From Mycobacterium botniense (GTDB taxonomy: Bacteria > Actinomycetota > Actinomycetes > Mycobacteriales > Mycobacteriaceae), in the NCBI RefSeq assembly GCF_010723305.1, contig NZ_BLKW01000004.1:1302001-1366000 (forward strand): DNA of 64,000 nucleotides, in the 5' to 3' direction. Below, piece by piece: positions 2,606-12,969 of the stretch (its first letter is position 1; the number at the start of each line of letters is the position of its first letter). Below the pieces are notes generated by a model that saw only the letters and a list, made by a program, of their open reading frames with translations, was not told the origin of the DNA and did no database searches. The position numbers were made by a program, and so were the translations under genes.

Positions 2606-2764
2606 GATGCGATGGCCGCGGAAGCCGCTGTCGCACAAGTAATTAGCCACAGTATGGCGTCTGGGCAGAGGTATCCACGTGCCGCTTCCCCAACTGCGAT
2701 CGACCTGCTGAGTTGTGCGATATCGATCACCCAATTGCGTACCCCGTCGGGCCGACCCATCCGA

Positions 2765-2866
2765 CCAAGGTAGGATCGTTCTGCCGTATTGGCGCCAGTC
2801 TCTGGCGAAACATGCTGGTGGAGAAGATGATTGGGTCGAGGGGTGTTGTTTGAGATATCTGAGGTG
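2765..2866 (+). repeat. cassette boundary repeat, copy A (core + right arm)
   Basis: CCAAGGTAGGATCGTTCTG at 2765 is followed by TGCCGTATTG (2782), TGGCGAAA (2803) and GGTGTTGTTTGAGATAT with TGAGGTG (2842-2866). The last 25 bp match copy C (4289-4313) at 20 of 25 positions. TGCCGTATTG and GGGGTGTTGTTTGA are 58 bp apart here and also in copy D (6017 and 6075). The usual left arm is absent; the bases before CCAAGGT are unrelated. That makes this the left outer junction of the array. CGCCA-GTCTC-TGGCG at 2793-2807 can form a small hairpin. The rest of 2606-3060 holds no gene I can support. Confidence 0.6.
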
Positions 2867-2980
2867 GCCGGCATGAGTTGGGCGAATGCACGGGCGGCCA
2901 CGCCGACTGACACCCCCGGAAGCCTGACGCTGGCTGCAGCCTGGATGTTGCGTGCCACGCCGTGTCGATATCCCCGCACA

Positions 2981-3000
2981 AGCGACTTGTCACCAAGGTG
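2981..3000 (+). repeat. cassette boundary repeat, copy A' (left arm end + core)
   Basis: AGCGACTTGTCACCAAGGTG occurs here and again, base for base, at 3831-3850. The two copies directly flank the first vapBC module. The GGGGGTAG part of the left arm is missing here and no right arm follows. Confidence 0.65.
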
Positions 3001-3068
3001 TGTCACATCGCAACGAGACGACTCCATCCAGTATCGTCGACGTCCGTTGCCGCCGCGGCGTGGCGTAT

Positions 3069-3092
3069 CCTTACTTTTAGTCAATAGTAAGG
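3069..3092. promoter_or_regulatory. inverted-repeat operator of the first vapBC
   Basis: CCTTACT (3069-3075) and AGTAAGG (3086-3092) form a perfect 7-bp inverted repeat with a 10-bp AT-rich spacer. It ends 7 bp before the vapB start codon and covers the Shine-Dalgarno AAGGAG. AbrB-type antitoxins usually autoregulate by binding such repeats, so this is the likely operator. Confidence 0.5.
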
Positions 3093-3099
3093 AGTTCAG

Positions 3100-3348
3100 A
3101 TGGACGTTGCTGCCAAACTGACGTCGAAGGGTCAGGTGACGGTCCCGAAGGCAGTGCGTGATGCGCTCGGCCTGAAGGAGGGCGACGAGGTGATCTTCCG
3201 GGTGGAAGGCAGTCGAGCGGTGCTGGCCCGCACGCCGAACTTTCTCACGCTTGCCGAAACGGTCCGCGTACCAGCGGCGAAACGCAATGTCGCCTGGGAT
3301 GAGGTGATCCGCCGCACCAGAGCCGCTCGAACCGCCGACCGCCGTTGA
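3100..3348 (+). CDS. vapB: VapB-type antitoxin, AbrB/MazE swapped-hairpin fold
   Basis: 82 residues. The N-terminus AAKLTSKGQVTVPKAVRDAL with LKEGDEVIF is the SpoVT/AbrB DNA-binding swapped-hairpin signature. The basic C-terminal tail (VIRRTRAARTADRR) is the expected toxin-binding region. The ATG at 3100 has AAGGAG about 7 bp upstream. The stop codon overlaps the toxin start in a TTGA arrangement, so the two genes are translationally coupled. It should neutralise the following PIN toxin and repress its own promoter at the inverted repeat just upstream. Confidence 0.88.
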   Translation: MDVAAKLTSKGQVTVPKAVRDALGLKEGDEVIFRVEGSRAVLARTPNFLTLAETVRVPAAKRNVAWDEVIRRTRAARTADRR

Positions 3349-3746
3349 CCGCGATCATTGATACCAACGTCCTCGTCCGTCACCTCACCGGCGATCCGCC
3401 TGAGATGGCGGCTCGGGCGACTGCTTACCTTGGGACCGAGCGCGAGCTACTACTGACCGACCTCATCGTCGCTAAGACGGTGTACGTGTTGGAGTCCTTC
3501 TATGAGGCGCCACGCGAACAAGTCGCCGAAGCGATGAGGTCGCTCATCACATTCGACTCCATTGTCTGCGTGGACCCGGCGCTTCTTTTGCGTTCAATCG
3601 AGGTCTACGAGACTGACCGGATTGATTTCGCGGAGGCATACCTCGTCGCGTGCGCGGAAAGCACCGGGGTCATCAAGATCGCCTCTTTCGACCGGGCCAT
3701 TGACCGCGTCAAGACGGTCGAACGGATTGAACCTCCGCCGATCTGA
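3345..3746 (+). CDS. vapC: VapC-type toxin, PIN-domain ribonuclease
   Basis: 133 residues starting at TTG (3345), which overlaps the antitoxin stop. The acidic PIN residues are present: IIDTNVLVRHL near residue 6, the glutamate in YVLESFYEA, the aspartate in DRIDFAEAYLVACAE, and SFDRAID near the C-terminus. The nuclease therefore looks intact. PIN toxins of this family cleave tRNA or rRNA when free of antitoxin; the target here cannot be told. It is the second gene of the first module of the array. Confidence 0.88.
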   Translation: MTAIIDTNVLVRHLTGDPPEMAARATAYLGTERELLLTDLIVAKTVYVLESFYEAPREQVAEAMRSLITFDSIVCVDPALLLRSIEVYETDRIDFAEAYLVACAESTGVIKIASFDRAIDRVKTVERIEPPPI

Positions 3747-3819
3747 TCCGGCAATTGCGGCCGCCGCAACAGACGGTAGGACCGAGTGGCTATCAATCAT
3801 CACCTAGACGCGCTGCGGA

Positions 3820-3850
3820 GGGGGTAGGTTAGCGACTTGTCACCAAGGTG
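3820..3850 (+). repeat. cassette boundary repeat, copy B (left arm + core)
   Basis: GGGGGTAGGTT (3820-3830) leads into AGCGACTTGTCACCAAGGTG (3831-3850). The left arm and core match copy C at 4241-4270. The sequence to the right (CGGCTGGTTTGCC) is unrelated to the right arm. It closes the vapBC module. Confidence 0.65.
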
Positions 3851-3886
3851 CGGCTGGTTTGCCGGTGATGCACCTAGCGTGGTACG

Positions 3887-4102
3887 TCAGATCCGCATGG
3901 AGTCTCTAGCAGCTAACTCCTTGCCGCTGAAGTAGCGCGAGTGGGTTTGCTTTAAGGTGTCCAGTGATTTGCTGACAAGTGCGGCGATCTCGACGTCCCT
4001 ATCGGTGCGCTCGGCTTCGAGCTTAAGCCGGTACTCCATCGCCTCCCGCGTGGTCACAAACTCGGTAATGCGACGCTCATGGGTGCGCCGGTTGTAATCC
4101 AC
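3887..4102 (-). CDS. small hypothetical protein occupying its own cassette
   Basis: A 71-residue frame from GTG (4102) lies alone between boundary copies B and C, on the strand opposite to the first vapBC. The product is charged and mostly helical in appearance (RRITEFVTTREAMEYRLKLE, then DVEIAALVSKSLDTL), which suggests an amphipathic or coiled-coil helix. I do not recognise a family. No strong Shine-Dalgarno precedes the GTG. By position it could be a solitary antitoxin-like protein or the remnant of another toxin-antitoxin pair; neither is shown. Confidence 0.35.
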   Translation of the reverse strand: MDYNRRTHERRITEFVTTREAMEYRLKLEAERTDRDVEIAALVSKSLDTLKQTHSRYFSGKELAARDSMRI

Positions 4103-4240
4103 GATTGCTCAGCCTACGGAGGCAGGCGGACATGTCCTGATACCTCGAAGACGCGCTTTGCTGAAGTTGCAGCGGTCTCTCGCGGGCCCGATCGATCGCT
4201 AAGACGGCGACACCCCGGCCGCACACCGCGGCAGTGCGAA

Positions 4241-4313
4241 GGGGGTAGATTCCCGACTTGTCACCAAGGTTAGATCGTTCTGTCGTTTGGTGTTATTCGC
4301 GACATTTGAGGTG
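4241..4313 (+). repeat. cassette boundary repeat, copy C (left arm-core-right arm)
   Basis: This is the most complete copy of left arm plus core plus right arm. GGGGGTAGATT (4241-4251) leads to CGACTTGTCACCAAGGT (4254-4270), then TAGATCGTTCTGTCGTTTGG to 4290, and the GGTGTT...TGAGGTG block at 4289-4313. Compared with copies A and D, about 50 bp inside the right arm are missing. Both halves meeting at one core is what a junction between two tandem cassettes would look like. From 4314 to 4446 I see nothing else. Confidence 0.6.
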
Positions 4314-4446
4314 AGTCGAGTCGGGTGCGTGGGCCATGGTCGAGTGGCTGCATTGTCGCAGCTAAGTGGGTGCCGTCGGGTGCGATGGGCAATCCTTTCG
4401 GCCTCTGTCCCCACGTTGTTCTACACCACGAATCCTGGTCTCCTGC

Positions 4447-4776
4447 TCATCCGGCAAGCCCGAGGAACACCAGCAGTGCGCGATCGAGTCGGATGAGGTC
4501 GCTATCGGCGAGACGGCCGACGCGCTCATGCACGTTCGCCCGCGGCATGGTGGTGATCTTGTCGACCATGATCTGGCTTGGCTGCTCAATGCCGGTTGCC
4601 ACCGTCGGGTCCACAGCGATCCGGATCAGCGGCGCCTCGACGAGGTTGGTTGTCAGCGGACAGACCGTGACCGAGGCGGTCGCATCAAATCGGTCATCCT
4701 GAACGATGACGACCGGTCTCGGCTTGCCCGTATAGAAACCTCGTGCAGCGGCGACGTGGATATCGCCTCGCCTCAC
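4447..4776 (-). CDS. mazF: MazF/PemK-type endoribonuclease toxin
   Basis: 109 residues from GTG (4776), overlapping the antitoxin stop by 4 bp. MRRGDIHVAAARGFYTGKPR with PVVIVQDDRF is the typical N-terminal strand pair of the MazF/PemK fold. VTVCPLTTN and PSQIMVDKITTMPR are the conserved active-site and substrate-loop regions. MazF toxins cut single-stranded mRNA or rRNA at short motifs. Length and motifs are complete, so it is probably functional with the upstream MazE. Confidence 0.9.
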   Translation of the reverse strand: MRRGDIHVAAARGFYTGKPRPVVIVQDDRFDATASVTVCPLTTNLVEAPLIRIAVDPTVATGIEQPSQIMVDKITTMPRANVHERVGRLADSDLIRLDRALLVFLGLAG

Positions 4777-4997
4777 TCGGCGAGCTCGCCCTCGGCAGCC
4801 CAGTCGACAGAGATTGCATCGACGAAAGCTTGATCGTCGGCCTCATGCTCGCTGGCGGCGATAACAGCCGACTGGCGGTGAGCCTCTGCGGCGAATTCCG
4901 GCGCCCGCACATCAGGTACCCACATCTGGACAGGCCGAAGCCCCTGGGCGCGCAGCCGCCGACGATGTTCCTGCACCCGCTCTCGTGGGCTAGCCAT
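4773..4997 (-). CDS. mazE: MazE-type antitoxin (DUF3018-like)
   Basis: 74 residues: ATG at 4997, reading SPRERVQEHRRRLRAQGLRP then VQMWVPDVR. This matches the antitoxin MazE family with the DUF3018 N-terminal DNA-binding segment. The acidic C-terminus (AISVDWAAEGELAE) is the expected toxin-wrapping part. It overlaps mazF by 4 bp. A perfect palindrome lies 8 bp upstream of its start and probably carries autoregulation. Confidence 0.85.
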   Translation of the reverse strand: MASPRERVQEHRRRLRAQGLRPVQMWVPDVRAPEFAAEAHRQSAVIAASEHEADDQAFVDAISVDWAAEGELAE

Positions 4998-5005
4998 GCA
5001 CCGAG

Positions 5006-5017
5006 GTTACATGTAAC
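5006..5017. promoter_or_regulatory. perfect palindrome upstream of mazEF
   Basis: GTTACATGTAAC is a perfect 12-bp palindrome ending 8 bp upstream of the mazE start codon. The position suits an autoregulatory operator. Between it and the end of vapC (5018-5198) I find no supported gene. Confidence 0.5.
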
Positions 5018-5198
5018 ATCCCGGGTCATCAACTCGGCTCGGCTGGCGCCGCGCTGTGCGCACCAAGCACGATCGGCTGCGGGCCATGGCCGCTGAGCAG
5101 GCATTGGCGCAGTCGAAACACCTGGCTCGCGAAGCCAACCTGATCGCCCGGATGCTCCAGAAGACGCGTTGGCGGTTCTTTGGCTTTGGCCCGGTTGG

Positions 5199-5624
5199 CT
5201 ACTGGCTCGGCGCCAGCCCTACAGCGACCTGCTGCGCTGCGGAGCGTAGCCGCTGGTCCCACACGGCGAACACGGCGTCATCGACCCCAATAGCGAGGAC
5301 ACTGGCAAGGTGGACCGCGTCGGCGCCACGCAGCGCGTGCGCTGTGGCTAAATGTCCAGCGTGGTGAGCGATGTTCTCAGTCAGCTCCACCGCACGGGTG
5401 GCTGCCCAGTACTCTTCCCACATCACCTGGGCCTGAAGTTGTTCGTCGGTGCCCAAGCGGCGTGCACGGCCGGCAGCCGCTAGCGCCGCGCGCACCTCGG
5501 GGTAGGCCAACCGCGAAGAGACCGCGGCGTCGCAGCCATCCCAGAGCGCCGCGGCGATGTCGCTGTCATCCTCCTCAACGAGGAGTTTGATGAACGCGCT
5601 GCTGTCGAAGTAGACGATCGGCAC
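5199..5624 (-). CDS. vapC: VapC-type toxin, PIN-domain ribonuclease (second vapBC)
   Basis: 141 residues. PIN catalytic positions are visible: IVYFDSSAFIKLL near residue 7, the glutamate in LAYPEVRAAL, ADAVHLASVLAIG, and VWDQRL at the usual last acidic position. It starts 3 bp after the end of its Phd-type antitoxin. Length and motifs are normal for a VapC. It shares a boundary-to-boundary cassette with mazEF on the same strand. Confidence 0.88.
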   Translation of the reverse strand: MPIVYFDSSAFIKLLVEEDDSDIAAALWDGCDAAVSSRLAYPEVRAALAAAGRARRLGTDEQLQAQVMWEEYWAATRAVELTENIAHHAGHLATAHALRGADAVHLASVLAIGVDDAVFAVWDQRLRSAAQQVAVGLAPSQ

Positions 5625-5627
5625 GGG

Positions 5628-5891
5628 TCAGCGGCGTTGTTCGCTGACCAGGTCGGAGACCGACCCTCGAGCACGCACGCGTGGTGCCCCGCTGGCCGTG
5701 GGCCGGCCCGCCGATCGCGGCCGGCTCACCACACCCTGCCGGGTCAGCTGCTCCAGCAGCGGCGCGGCGTCCACGGCCACCAGCCGAACGACCGGGATTC
5801 CCCGGTCGGTCACGACGACCTCCTCGCCGGCACGGACACGCTCGATCCAGTCCGCGAGCTCGGCCCGCAACGTACTCACCGCAACCTCCAT
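5628..5891 (-). CDS. vapB: VapB antitoxin, Phd/YefM family
   Basis: 87 residues from ATG at 5891. MEVAVSTLRAELADWIERVR followed by GEEVVVTDRGIPVVRLV is the Phd/YefM DNA-binding domain. The arginine- and serine-rich C-terminus is the toxin-neutralising tail. Longer upstream starts exist, but the ATG chosen begins the conserved domain and sits just downstream of the inverted repeat that probably controls the operon. The antitoxin precedes its toxin by 3 bp. Confidence 0.88.
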   Translation of the reverse strand: MEVAVSTLRAELADWIERVRAGEEVVVTDRGIPVVRLVAVDAAPLLEQLTRQGVVSRPRSAGRPTASGAPRVRARGSVSDLVSEQRR

Positions 5892-5899
5892 AACGGCAG

Positions 5900-5928
5900 T
5901 GTACAATATAAGAGCAACAACTTGTACA
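5900..5928. promoter_or_regulatory. inverted-repeat operator of the second vapBC
   Basis: TGTACAA (5900-5906) and TTGTACA (5922-5928) are perfect 7-bp inverted arms separated by 15 bp, starting 9 bp upstream of the vapB ATG on the minus strand. The spacing of about two helical turns suits a dimer-of-dimers Phd-type repressor. Confidence 0.5.
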
Positions 5929-5977
5929 TCGTGCCCGATCAAACCCCGGTGCCATCGACCGTTGAAGACGTGGCGAA

Positions 5978-6095
5978 GGGGTAGCTTACTGACTTGCGAG
6001 TAACGTCACCTGCCTTTGCCGTATTGCCTCATAGGTCTTGGCGAAATGGCTGTAAAAGCCATTGATTAGGGCCTGGGGTGTTGTTTGATATACGC
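5978..6095 (+). repeat. cassette boundary repeat, copy D (left arm + long right arm)
   Basis: GGGGTAGCTTACTGACTTG (5978-5996) is the left arm. The core is altered (GTAACGTCACC). The right arm then runs long: TGCCGTATTG (6017), TGGCGAAA (6039) and GGGGTGTTGTTTGA (6075-6088). The distance from the first to the last of these is 58 bp, as in copy A. A small hairpin AATGGCT-GTAAA-AGCCATT lies inside (about 6045-6063). From 6096 to 6168 I see only a further short hairpin (ACCCT-AAAA-AGGGT). Confidence 0.55.
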
Positions 6096-6168
6096 GACGG
6101 GAACTCGGATGGGTAATACCCTAAAAAGGGTCCGGGGATAGTTGGGTGATCGCTGACGACAAGCACGC

Positions 6169-6197
6169 ATCGCATGTGCATGTCATGCGCATGCGAT
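6169..6197. promoter_or_regulatory. inverted-repeat operator of the third vapBC
   Basis: ATCGCATG (6169-6176) and CATGCGAT (6190-6197) are perfect 8-bp inverted arms with a 13-bp spacer, ending 11 bp upstream of the vapB ATG. A ribbon-helix-helix antitoxin such as the following one would be expected to bind here. Confidence 0.5.
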
Positions 6198-6208
6198 AGT
6201 TTGCGGCT

Positions 6209-6439
6209 ATGGCGGTTGCGATTCAGATCAAAGATGTCCCTGAAGAAGTTCGCGACGCGCTGGCCGCCCGCGCCGCGGCACGCGGTCAGTCCACCCAAAC
6301 GTATCTGCGATCACTGTTGGAACGGGAGTACCAGGCTCAACGCAACCGGCAGCTCTTAGAGGCGCTGGCTGGTCATCGCAGCCTCACCATGACAGCCGAG
6401 GAAGTGACGGCGGTCATCCGCGCCGACCGCGACGGGTGA
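6209..6439 (+). CDS. vapB: VapB antitoxin, ribbon-helix-helix (FitA/CopG-like)
   Basis: 76 residues. VAIQIKDVPEEVRDALAARA followed by STQTYLRSLLEREY is the ribbon-helix-helix pattern of FitA/VapB antitoxins: an N-terminal strand, then two helices. The C-terminal half (LAGHRSLTMTAEEVTAVIRA) is the toxin-binding arm. The ATG at 6209 follows the inverted repeat. It ends 10 bp before the toxin start. Confidence 0.88.
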   Translation: MAVAIQIKDVPEEVRDALAARAAARGQSTQTYLRSLLEREYQAQRNRQLLEALAGHRSLTMTAEEVTAVIRADRDG

Positions 6440-6449
6440 GTTCCCGCCT

Positions 6450-6854
6450 GTGATCATCGTGGACGCAGGTGTGCTGGTATCGGCGCTTACGAGCGACACG
6501 TCCCAAGGCGACGCGGCACGCGCAGCCCTAAACGACGACGACGGCTGGCTTGCACCGGCCCACATGCCGGGCGAGGTGCTACGCACCCTCCACAAAGCCG
6601 TACGGCGCAACCAATTGGAGCCCGAGGACGCCGAGGCCGTCGCTGACACCGTCACCGCACTCGCCATCGAATACGTGCTTCCGGATGCACTGCTCCTGCA
6701 CACCGCCTGGGCCTGGCGGCACAACATCTCGATCTACGACGGCCTGTATGTCGCGGTCGCCGCCGAACGCTCTGCCGCCCTGATCACCGCCGACAGCCAC
6801 TTGGCCAGTGCCACTGACCAGCTCAGTGTCCCCGTCGCGATCACCCTGATCTAG
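6450..6854 (+). CDS. vapC: VapC-type toxin, PIN-domain ribonuclease (third vapBC)
   Basis: 134 residues from GTG at 6450. IIVDAGVLVSAL, the glutamate in MPGEVLRTLH, ISIYDGLYVAVAAE and ITADSHLA provide the PIN acidic residues in order. The enzyme appears intact. This is the last module of the array. Boundary copy E lies 36 bp after its stop, and the serine recombinase remnant follows. Confidence 0.88.
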   Translation: MIIVDAGVLVSALTSDTSQGDAARAALNDDDGWLAPAHMPGEVLRTLHKAVRRNQLEPEDAEAVADTVTALAIEYVLPDALLLHTAWAWRHNISIYDGLYVAVAAERSAALITADSHLASATDQLSVPVAITLI

Positions 6855-6889
6855 GTCCGCCGGCGATACGGGGGTTAAGCGGCTCGCAT

Positions 6890-6921
6890 GGGGGTAGATA
6901 AACGGTTTGCCAGCAAATGTT
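6890..6921 (+). repeat. cassette boundary repeat, copy E (diverged left arm + core)
   Basis: GGGGGTAGAT (6890-6899) is identical to copy C. The next bases (AAACGGTTTGCCAGCAAATGTT) keep a CG-TTG-CA-CAA skeleton of the arm and core. No right arm follows. The copy ends 43 bp upstream of the serine recombinase start, where attP or attL sites of large serine integrases commonly lie. Confidence 0.4.
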
Positions 6922-6964
6922 TATGCCGGACATATTGTCGGTTTGTGAAAGTACCCTTTAGCGC

Positions 6965-7741
6965 ATGGTTACTACACCCACCGCAAAACAGCAGGGTTGC
7001 TACTGCCGCATAAGCTCCGACCCCCAGGACAAACGGGCGGGCGTTGAACGCCAGCGCGCCGACACCACCGCGCTCTACGAGGTCAAAGAATGGATGCCGG
7101 TCGGCTTCTACGTAGACAACGACCGGTCGGCGAGCAATGGCAAGCAGCGGCCCCGGTGGGACGACCTTCTCGCTGACATCACGGCCGGGAAGATAGACGC
7201 CATCGCCGCCTGGGACCAGGACCGCGGGTGGGGATGATGCACGAGCTGGAGACGTTGCGCCGTTTCTTCGCCGGGGCTCGGTCGGTAGATCAAGCTGGCC
7301 ACCACCGACCAAGGCGAGATCGACCTCTACTCACCGACCGGGGTGATGATGGCGCAGATCAAGAGGGCCGTCAGCGAGCACGAAATCGCCATGATGCGGG
7401 TGCGCCTGCGCCGCGCCGCCAGGCAGCGGGCCGAACGCGGATTCCCGAAGTGGCGCAGGTCTTTCGGCTAGCTGCCCGAGACTCGCGCAGCCAAGGATGA
7501 CGACGCCATCCGCGAGATCGACCAGCGCACAGCGCCATTGATGCAGCAAGCCTATCGGATGCTTTTGGCGGATGCGTAGTTGAACGATATCGGCAGAGTG
7601 CTGAACGATGCTGGCGCATTTGGCCTTAACGGAAAACCGTGGAGCGCCAAAACGGTTTCGCTCTTCCTGCGCTCACCACGTAATGCCGGTTTGCGCTCCC
7701 ATACCCGGCTCGACAAGTACGGCAAAGTGATCGGTGACTGA
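6965..7741 (+). pseudogene. large serine recombinase (phiRv1-like integrase), inactivated and truncated
   Basis: The N-terminus carries the resolvase-type catalytic region (YCRISSDPQDKRAGVERQ, with the nucleophile serine in RISS) and VDNDRSASNGKQRPRWDDLL. Translating across a frameshift between about 7225 and 7290 recovers DLYSPTGVMMAQIKRAVSEH, RAARQRAERGFPKWRRSFG, and then GAFGLNGKPWSAKTVSLFLR with SPRNAGLR. This is the order and wording of the phiRv1 integrase (Rv1586c), as I recall it. Two in-frame TAG codons also interrupt it (one where FGYLP is expected). The zinc-ribbon and coiled-coil DNA-binding parts are missing after 7741. It cannot act now but may once have moved the neighbouring array or prophage. 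Confidence 0.8.
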
Positions 7742-7995
7742 TATCATCACGGTCCAAACGTAATTCGGCGTTCTCTTTACGCAGACGCTCCAACTCCGCG
7801 CGTTCACCAGCATCTAACACTGCGCCAGTATCACAGCCGAAGCCGCCTGGCGTTGCAGGCGCACCCAACGCCCCAGCACTTGATCACCCACACCAATCTC
7901 AGCACCACGTGAGCCACCAGGCGGCCGGTCTCAATCACCAGGTGGGCAGCCTGCTCCCGAAACTCGGGAGTGTACTTGCGACGCTTGCCCGACAT
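7742..7995 (-). pseudogene. IS3-family transposase OrfA remnant
   Basis: From ATG at 7995 the minus strand reads MSGKRRKYTPEFREQAAHLV, the usual start of IS3-family OrfA with its helix-turn-helix. It then degenerates, and the C-terminal leucine-zipper part (DAGERAELERLRKENAELR) reappears in another frame near 7790-7835. No OrfB follows. The left end abuts the truncated serine recombinase, so this insertion or a later deletion removed the end of the recombinase. About 8032-8060 may contain the IS terminus, but I cannot fix it. Confidence 0.65.
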
Positions 7996-8084
7996 GCGGA
8001 CATCCTTCCTGGGGGACCAGCAGTCCCACCAGTCAGTTGTCCAACATCAGGGGTGAACCCCAGGACCAGATCGTTGACGAGGTT

Positions 8085-12538: not shown

Positions 12539-12664
12539 TACTGATGTAAGGGGCCTGATGGGCTGGATAAACCCTTGGTCACGCCGCCGAGGATACTGAA
12601 GGGTACCGACAAGTACGGCTCAACAGTTCTTTCGAAATCGCAGCTACCACTTGCGCAAAACATG

Positions 12665-12957
12665 TTGGACAGGGCTGAACGGTTGGCGCGACGAGCAGTT
12701 GCCCGACGGCACAGTGGTCTGGACTTCCCAAGTGGGCAGGCGTACACCACTCGCCCGGGCAGTCGCCTGCTGTCTCCCACCGTGTGCCTGCCCACCGGGG
12801 GGTTACCTTGTGCCGCAACAGTGACTCAACCCCCGGGTGACCACGGGTTCATGATGCTCGTGCGCCGACGGACGCGGGTGCAGGACCGGGCACGCCGCAT
12901 CGACGCCGAACGCGCACTCAACGCCGTCCCACCGCCGAACGCAACCCTCCGCCGCCC
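12665..12957 (+). pseudogene. C-terminal remnant of a 13E12/DUF222-HNH endonuclease family protein
   Basis: One frame gives [16 protein letters not shown], and the next continues [39 protein letters not shown] and IDAERALN. These are consecutive landmarks of the HNH-containing C-terminus of mycobacterial 13E12-repeat proteins. Only the last third survives, with a frameshift in it. It marks the right edge of the island, 12 bp before the conserved macro-domain gene. In M. tuberculosis, 13E12 repeats are the integration targets of phiRv1. Confidence 0.65.
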
Positions 12958-12969
12958 TTCTAGGACAAT

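Follow-up and report, generated by a model that had tools for sequence, protein, structure and literature searches.

How did pairs of toxin and antitoxin genes come to stand in a row, between copies of the same repeats, on the chromosome of Mycobacterium botniense? We examined this in a 64,000-nt stretch of its 4.34-Mb genome, G000 (assembly GCF_010723305.1, contig NZ_BLKW01000004.1, positions 1,302,001-1,366,000, forward strand), hereafter the window, in which an earlier note made from the sequence alone had described an array of toxin-antitoxin modules bounded by repeats. We consider it likely that the array consists of non-autonomous, cis-mobilisable toxin-antitoxin cassettes, inserted serially into an HNH gene of the REP13E12 family (13E12) by way of an actinomycete integrative and conjugative element (AICE) that carries a 13E12-specific serine integrase. 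Feature coordinates are collected in the Table; other genomes and loci are given by G and L numbers.

The 17-base core CGACTTGTCACCAAGGT was found exactly at positions 2983, 3833 and 4254 of the window, where 0.15 matches with up to three mismatches are expected by chance. Searching the whole genome with up to two mismatches returned three matches, all inside the array, so that the repeats are not dispersed genome-wide, the outcome that according to the earlier note would have spoken against its idea. The left arm GGGGGTAG lies at 3820, 4241 and 6890, and a variant form, AGGGGTAG, at 5977. A weight matrix derived from 32 different exact-pattern matches (including those at 3821, 4242 and 5978 of the window) gave these sites 41.6 bits at 3821, 48.4 at 4242, 41.6 at 5978 and 13.4 at 6891; no match of 12 bits or more appeared in 20 shuffles of the window. 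Thus, of the five junctions to which a left arm plus core had been ascribed, those at 3820, 4241 and 5978 stood, whereas 2981 carries the core with no left arm, and at 6890 the left arm stands before a degenerate core. The right arm said to be common to three junctions is present at 2764 and 6000 and, in shortened form, at 4271, and its landmarks TGCCGTATTG (2782, 6017) and GGGGTGTTGTTTGA (2840, 6075) are indeed 58 bp apart in both copies. Likeness of the array left junction to L017 and L022 extends as far as 2977. The cargo was also as first described, namely a vapBC, one small gene (71 codons), mazEF plus vapBC, and a further vapBC, and each toxin and antitoxin gene is an intact open reading frame (ORF) in decayed surroundings, the neighbouring serine recombinase gene being frame-broken. 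Sequence of the 13E12 3′ part picks up again at about 12.63-12.97 kb of the window, where decay blocks exact placement of the core. A single insertion of roughly 9.9 kb thus seems to comprise the array, the remnant of the recombinase and about 5 kb of further DNA, in part decayed. No tRNA or tmRNA target was detected within the window.

To see how far the site extends, we searched a genus set of 396 genomes, which was also used for the integrase and the right arm. The 29-base site, with up to three mismatches, matched in nine of them, M. botniense included, and its reversed control pattern in none of the 396. A looser exact pattern matched 25 stretches among 84,980 prokaryote species, a collection from which records near the window genome were possibly omitted; by their titles all 25 belong to Mycobacterium, Candidatus Mycobacterium or Mycolicibacter, and the site is in this sense restricted to mycobacteria. 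Viral contigs gave no match to the pattern. Several loci hold two to four sites each by the weight matrix, all in one orientation.

Through a domain search in the nine genomes that bear the site, and through a matrix scan, we came upon a large serine integrase of 479 codons (PF07508), directly before the start codon of which a related site lies on the opposite strand. This protein matches models of the XisF/Ccr type, those of CcrB and CcrA with scores far under their cut-offs. The left arm corresponds to the P half of its attachment site, and P forms the right end of a cassette. In every one of the 30 loci retrieved, the other half, P′, lies directly against the start codon of the integrase gene (an earlier, stricter expression for P′ caught 23 of them); in 22 it is joined to a left half of an HNH gene of the REP13E12 family, 14 times of one HNH variety and eight times of the other; a P half stands beside the integrase left end in none of the 30. 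Representative P and P′ are inverted repeats at 17 of 24 positions, a value that one of 20,000 shuffles reached. Inverted P/P′ half-sites and hybrid B.P′ and P.B′ junctions, here in 13E12, are traits of large serine integrase attachment sites. The integrase (best identity at least 79%) occurs in 37 of the 396 genomes and in six of the nine with the site (Fisher p = 3e-5).

The left end of a cassette, that is, the right arm of a junction, opens like the right half of 13E12 (consensus near CTCAGATGCCTGTGCCG) and then departs from it. Two classes could be told apart: class I ends are B′-like, continue with about 110 conserved bp and have no inverted P half, and class II ends contain, some 90 bp inside, a P half in inverted orientation. 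A sequence-only profile of the class I right arm, made from 18 sequences, matched in 15 of the 396 genomes, covering all nine with the P site, six of which had contributed sequences to the profile and three had not. Left junctions in which 13E12 is followed by a right arm without P were seen in the window, in L041 (HHIRHWEDGGLTVLFK then the arm), in L157 and in L165. Because in all four a 13E12 half-site is followed by a B′-like arm, an attB-like site seems to be regenerated there. Folding of the 18 class I sequences gave six predicted pairs at -2.57 kcal/mol, with one pair changed on both sides; lacking a conserved fold, the right arm was ruled out as an integron attC. Right flanks reading CATCATTTGATGAAAAC, once taken for the arm of an ATPase cassette, are 13E12 3′ halves, and the assignment was corrected.

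Fourteen integrase elements were followed outwards, and both ends were found in 12 (G165, G186, G282, G351 and eight of ten others). Not among the 12 are G195a and G207, with no right end within 40 kb, and G083 and G002, with a downstream site (L110, L111) and an end pair not established as intact. The right junction joins P to the 13E12 right half in nine of the 12. Beside the integrase, genes of the pSAM2-type RepSA and of the FtsK type stand in 14 of 15 elements, G083 showing neither in 40 kb, and the elements are therefore AICEs. Three of the 12 (G165, G282, G351) hold one extra cassette, which always stands at the right end, after the P of the element itself and before the final junction; in these composites the integrase element occupies the left end, where the scheme set out below would place attB. 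Sites, half-site identities, target, cassette boundaries, composites and conjugative genes are in each case read from the sequence.

If cassettes are the units that move, related segments should end where the sites are. In an all-against-all comparison, many homologous segments stopped at or near site cores. The tacAT modules of L017 and L022 are 98% identical, with the P-side end 1 bp from the core in both, and the ribbon-helix-helix (RHH) module matches of L018 and of L038 to L050 end 1-26 bp from cores, while the match of L018 with L038 overruns the cores by about 96 and 48 bp. L021 and L045 share a module with a 102-codon antitoxin; this module has its ends 6-23 bp from cores, and where it matches L018 a site bounds it at one end only. 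The module common to L039 and L048 stops within 16 bp of the cores on one side and at 3 and 101 bp on the other. One vapBC cassette occupies two places of a single genome (L022, L041) with 100% identity over 871 bp, the L022 copy being shortened on the left. The last vapBC of the window has a 91% identical counterpart among the cassettes of L041, and the mazEF module of the window one of 84% identity beside a site in L028 (M. icosiumassiliensis). The second outcome that the earlier note had named as refuting was not seen either, in that relatives examined have single modules in common and do not share the whole block. Modules can also be missing: all 29 orthologous loci of relatives lack the tacAT of L017 (30 loci were retrieved out of 112 matching genomes, one being L017's own), the flanks being separated by no more than 171 bp there and by 1,293 bp in L017, with intergenic sequence too diverged for an exact empty site to be read. 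The carrier's end can be compared as well. Its mmpL end lies 4 bp from the core both in M. europaeum (L037), where the 4.2 kb available contain no further site, and in M. helveticum (L019), where a cassette follows. Cassettes that end in half-sites of the integrase are probably gained or lost as single units at one kind of chromosomal site. The mmpS/mmpL genes at the right end of the carrier in L019 (1742-4773) have homologous DNA at that place in L033, L037 and L106.

We then asked what the sites enclose. After merging of homologous ones, 20 distinct inter-site segments were available, and 13 contain toxin-antitoxin-type genes, six of them on weaker evidence (Table). The other seven have toxin-family or paired matches above Pfam cut-offs: window 2981-3820, 4241-5978 and 5978-6890, L022, L024, L106 and L041 5557-6524. 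A gene of the RHH kind seen in L021 adjoins a BrnT in L171. Of 32 ORFs that were picked for their coding composition and stem from 16 of the 20 segments, 22 match toxin-antitoxin families at the protein level. For comparison, we searched 40 ORFs of the same loci that lie over 3.5 kb away from a site: none of the 16 with a complete family list matched such a family, and the remaining 24 showed none among the 25 of 30 families listed. Addiction may be the reason for a cargo so rich in these genes. Closed units mostly measure about 0.8-1.3 kb, and no recombinase or transposase family was met in the closed-cassette proteins searched. Since two cassette types match PADLOC candidate defence models, a DUF4143 ATPase (PDC-S01, E 2.7e-164) and a nucleotidyltransferase pair (PDC-M05A, weakly PDC-M05B), the system may also spread phage defence. 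Of the loci that the right-arm profile gave outside the profile set, 14 were inspected; L145 (G319), being the same locus as the profile-building L045, does not count as new evidence. As the earlier note had proposed for a search of this kind, matches bound other small modules with different cargo: right arms adjoin toxin-antitoxin-type genes in L144, L148 and L154, a DUF4143 ATPase in L150, L153 and L157, and a PIN-type fragment in L171; inspection revealed no clear module in L155, L156, L159, L161, L165, L170 and L172. DUF4143 ATPase genes next to sites or right arms were noted in L023 (9986-11248, a copy close to PDC-S01), L111, L153 and L157.

Taken together, these results suggest a scheme for which ordinary serine-integrase reactions suffice. 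A class I cassette would begin B′-like and end with P. On insertion at attB (B.B′), chromosomal B would meet the B′ of the cassette on the left and P.B′ would arise on the right; since the left end would stay B.B′, the next unit could land there, and insertion at this regenerated attB would make the internal junctions P.B′. An AICE would integrate at the left attB (attP x attB), excise by way of the distal attR and so take the cassettes along, conjugate with them and integrate elsewhere; a later excision through the proximal attR would drop the cassettes behind. Excision by the proximal or the distal attR would explain composites, deposited cassettes and cassette-bearing genomes without an integrase. 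Recombination at the sites, its direction and transfer are what we infer here. The interpretation of the earlier note, serial site-specific capture of an integron-like kind, is supported with a qualification: the likeness to integrons holds for the layout and the apparent one-sided growth and fails for the machinery, which is a large serine integrase of a conjugative element, with no conserved fold in the right arm; capture itself is deduced from the sequence.

Several observations weigh against this scheme. An intact relative of the 479-residue integrase is missing from the genome of the window, and the neighbouring recombinase is a different, broken one; together with G320 and G251 this genome makes up the three of nine P-site genomes without the integrase, and 31 of the 37 integrase genomes have no strict P-site match. 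Nine of the 12 complete elements showed no further site and carry no cassette. Some insertions lie outside 13E12 (L017, the G282 element, eight of 30 integrase left ends). Seven of the 20 segments have no recognised toxin-antitoxin gene. Class II left ends and the core-only 2981 junction are unaccounted for by the simple scheme and point to deletion and rearrangement after insertion. Excision, a circular form and transfer are postulated, and the scheme gives no account of how a new gene pair first gains both ends.

Could the cassettes move without an AICE? Free cassette circles carrying a hybrid P.B′ site might be inserted straight into attB, much as in an integron. The four left junctions read as regenerated attB, the internal ones read as P.B′, the cassettes in genomes without the integrase and the vapBC cassette found twice in one genome would all agree with this. 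However, large serine integrases normally join attP with attB, or attL with attR in the presence of a directionality factor, and not a hybrid site with attB, and hitch-hiking on an AICE gives the same junctions by ordinary reactions, so we regard free circles as unlikely. That the arrays represent a serine-integrase counterpart of the integron, in which each insertion regenerates attB, toxin-antitoxin and candidate defence modules accumulate in 13E12 and hybrid sites are possibly recombined directly, has in our judgement a modest chance of being right.

Decay and homologous recombination could produce arrays in another way, if AICE remnants had piled up in 13E12 and exchanges between repeats had shuffled their toxin-antitoxin genes with no module-wise site-specific movement. 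The window island is decayed and its 2981 junction lacks an arm, the inverted P half of class II fits a deletion derivative of an element, the roughly 110 bp common to class I arms could support homologous exchange, and the L018-L038 match runs about 96 bp past a core and into the right arm that follows. Yet both boundaries of the L018/L050, L038/L050 and L021/L045 matches fall at or within about 26 bp of a core in different neighbourhoods, L039 and L048 share one boundary likewise, and class I left ends are B′-like, not P′, and so cannot be made by simple deletion of an element; this origin therefore seems rather improbable. Transposition in the manner of an insertion sequence or a miniature inverted-repeat transposable element, with the right arm and P as terminal sequences, would agree with units of about 0.8-1.3 kb that have fixed ends at several loci. 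It would be very hard to reconcile with the lack of a transposase family in the cassette proteins searched, with many insertions at one codon position of 13E12 genes and with a P that is the integrase's own site, and we give it hardly any credence. Hitch-hiking of cassettes on a 13E12-specific AICE remains the reading that we prefer.

Which known systems does this resemble? Mobile integrons likewise have arrays of small cassettes at one platform, apparent one-sided growth and toxin-antitoxin cassettes. The mycobacterial arrays differ from them in having no folded attC, no evident shared promoter and a linked recombinase of the serine type, not a tyrosine IntI (whole genomes were not searched for IntI); they are integron-like in layout without being integrons. 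The staphylococcal cassette chromosome, with its Ccr serine recombinases, is also found in tandem, but comprises whole islands with resistance genes at a single-copy target. The dif modules of Acinetobacter plasmids are small, have site-specific recombination sites, are shuffled among plasmids and, in the accounts available, are mentioned with toxin-antitoxin genes; they depend on XerCD tyrosine recombinases, whereas the mycobacterial cassettes use chromosomal sites of an element-borne serine integrase. Further parallels are the cis-mobilisable elements (CIMEs) among streptococcal integrative and conjugative or integrative and mobilisable elements (ICEs/IMEs), which the portions of PMC7563491 at hand describe as att-flanked units without an integrase, in tandem with integrase-bearing elements, gene-less micro-units included. 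Our cassettes have both features, being flanked by integrase half-sites without a recombinase gene of their own and standing in tandem with an integrase-bearing element on the same sites (G165, G282 and G351: element, cassette, final right junction). Streptococcal CIMEs are described there as decayed ICEs/IMEs of 1.2-13 kb with varied cargo; the mycobacterial units differ in their serine integrase, their size, mostly about 0.8-1.3 kb for closed units, their mainly toxin-antitoxin cargo, their B′-like class I left ends and a target that is a repeated family, 13E12. The tandem islands at Dehalococcoides ssrA share repeated att sites, a serine recombinase and recombinase-less islands explained by accretion; in the parts of PMC3146451 at hand they are whole islands with reductive-dehalogenase genes at a single-copy target, and no cassettes of one toxin-antitoxin pair are described.

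In mycobacteria, AICEs with serine recombinases, RepSA and FtsK genes and insertion in protein-coding genes have been reported (PMC3218068); the available text describes no cassettes or toxin-antitoxin cargo, and the terms 13E12 and toxin-antitoxin are absent from its main text. phiRv1 is located in REP13E12 (PMC9317374), again with no cassettes or toxin-antitoxin cargo in the portion at hand, and two mobilome papers mention AICEs without the term 13E12 in the main text (PMC8190616, PMC7478629). Accretion and CIMEs (known in streptococci, proposed for the Dehalococcoides islands), mycobacterial AICEs and phiRv1 in REP13E12 are thus already on record in these sources. The portions of the open-licence literature available gave no description of toxin-antitoxin cassettes at 13E12 serine-integrase sites; the earlier note knew of no such mycobacterial system either.

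In mycobacteria, vapBC, mazEF and pairs like them can be numerous, and it is a long-standing question how such pairs are acquired and dispersed. The system offers a concrete and testable vehicle, in which a conjugative carrier and an integrase are combined with attachment half-sites and a family of target genes. It is also a natural example of modular capture on the sites of a large serine integrase, and a partial explanation for the disruption of some REP13E12 genes.

Table. Features of the window array, class II left ends and inter-site segments (positions in the window unless a locus is named)
Feature	Position	Strand	Remark
REP13E12 HNH-gene left half-site (B), remnant	2742..2766	+	frame 2 reads across junction; ORF 2713-2853
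Array left junction: class I right arm (B′-like half-site and conserved ~110 bp), without P half	2764..2893	+	right-arm profile match G000:C4:1304765-1304892
Core-only junction AGCGACTTGTCACCAAGGT	2981..2999	+	P half lost or never present
vapBC cassette 1	3100..3746	+	MazE/AbrB-type antitoxin 3100-3348, PIN toxin 3345-3746 (Pfam)
P-core junction J2	3820..3849	+	
71-codon ORF	3887..4102	-	relative of small protein gene of mycobacteriophage WST1
P-core junction J3	4241..4270	+	shortened class I right arm follows after 4266, to ~4310
mazEF	4447..4997	-	PemK/MazF toxin 4447-4776, MazE-like antitoxin 4773-4997 (Pfam)
vapBC	5199..5942	-	PIN toxin 5199-5624, Phd/YefM antitoxin 5628-5942 (Pfam)
P-core junction J4, AGGGGTAG form	5977..6006	+	
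Class I right arm of last vapBC cassette	6000..6129	+	right-arm profile match G000:C4:1308002-1308125
vapBC cassette	6209..6854	+	FitA-like RHH antitoxin 6209-6439, PIN toxin 6450-6854 (Pfam)
P-core junction J5, degenerate core, and start of next right arm	6890..6959	+	common to L041 4006-4080
Broken large serine recombinase remnant	6965..7741	+	several frames; PF00239 match
Probable right junction (decayed) and REP13E12 gene 3′ half	12600..12966	+	12677-12966 ~73% to 13E12 3′ halves in L032/L033
Class II left ends	L018 11683, 9978; L038 4514; L050 2859; L042 5026; L019 11432		L019 inverted site 16.7 bits
Segment, weaker evidence	L018 11682-10867		RHH antitoxin-type gene, partner unmatched
Segment, weaker evidence	L018 10867-9977		BrnT below cut-off
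Segment, weaker evidence	L019		Phd, ParE below cut-off
Segment, weaker evidence	L021		RHH gene matched as NikA-like, partner unmatched
Segment, weaker evidence	L039		nucleotidyltransferase above Pfam cut-off, MntA antitoxin model below its own
Segment, weaker evidence	L035		antitoxin only
Segments without recognised toxin-antitoxin gene	window 3820-4241; L018 9977-7647; L041 4030-5557; L042; L172; two of 135 and 259 bp		

Some details of the cargo remain to be added. The small gene between J2 and J3 has no family match in Pfam, NCBIfam or PADLOC; the phage WST1 gene is the sole relative found, and a DNA search of a phage collection with window 2740-7900 returned a relative for this ORF only. 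The segments of 135 and 259 bp gave either no gene or just one called ORF of 62 codons; the part of the L042 segment that was searched encodes an alpha/beta hydrolase and an LppA-type lipoprotein. In Mycobacterium sp. SM1, a 2.7-kb segment upstream of a site, with these hydrolase and lipoprotein genes in the L042 copy, recurs on two contigs (L021, L042) with 98.6% identity, and larger cargo may move too. A cassette of L041 holds a 298-codon ORF (4224-5120) with CxxC and H motifs and no match in Pfam, NCBIfam or PADLOC. The 6890 junction had been considered as the start of an autonomous integrase cassette; its L041 counterpart leads into this ORF, with no integrase, and the idea was rejected.

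Plasmids of M. intracellulare and Rhodococcus carry relatives of the first vapBC and of mazEF. Sites are absent from both regions that were examined (L193, L194), so that these pairs travel without cassettes too, and a plasmid origin of the cassettes was dropped. The recombinase remnant of the window is a distant relative of the 479-residue integrase (45% over 76 residues), and a probable insertion-sequence remnant at 7747-8066 is 89% identical to L021 1854-1534. Upstream of the 13E12 remnant lies a decayed hydrolase/adenylate-cyclase gene (1747-2605), which we take to be lipJ-like, with what is presumably cinA on its other side.

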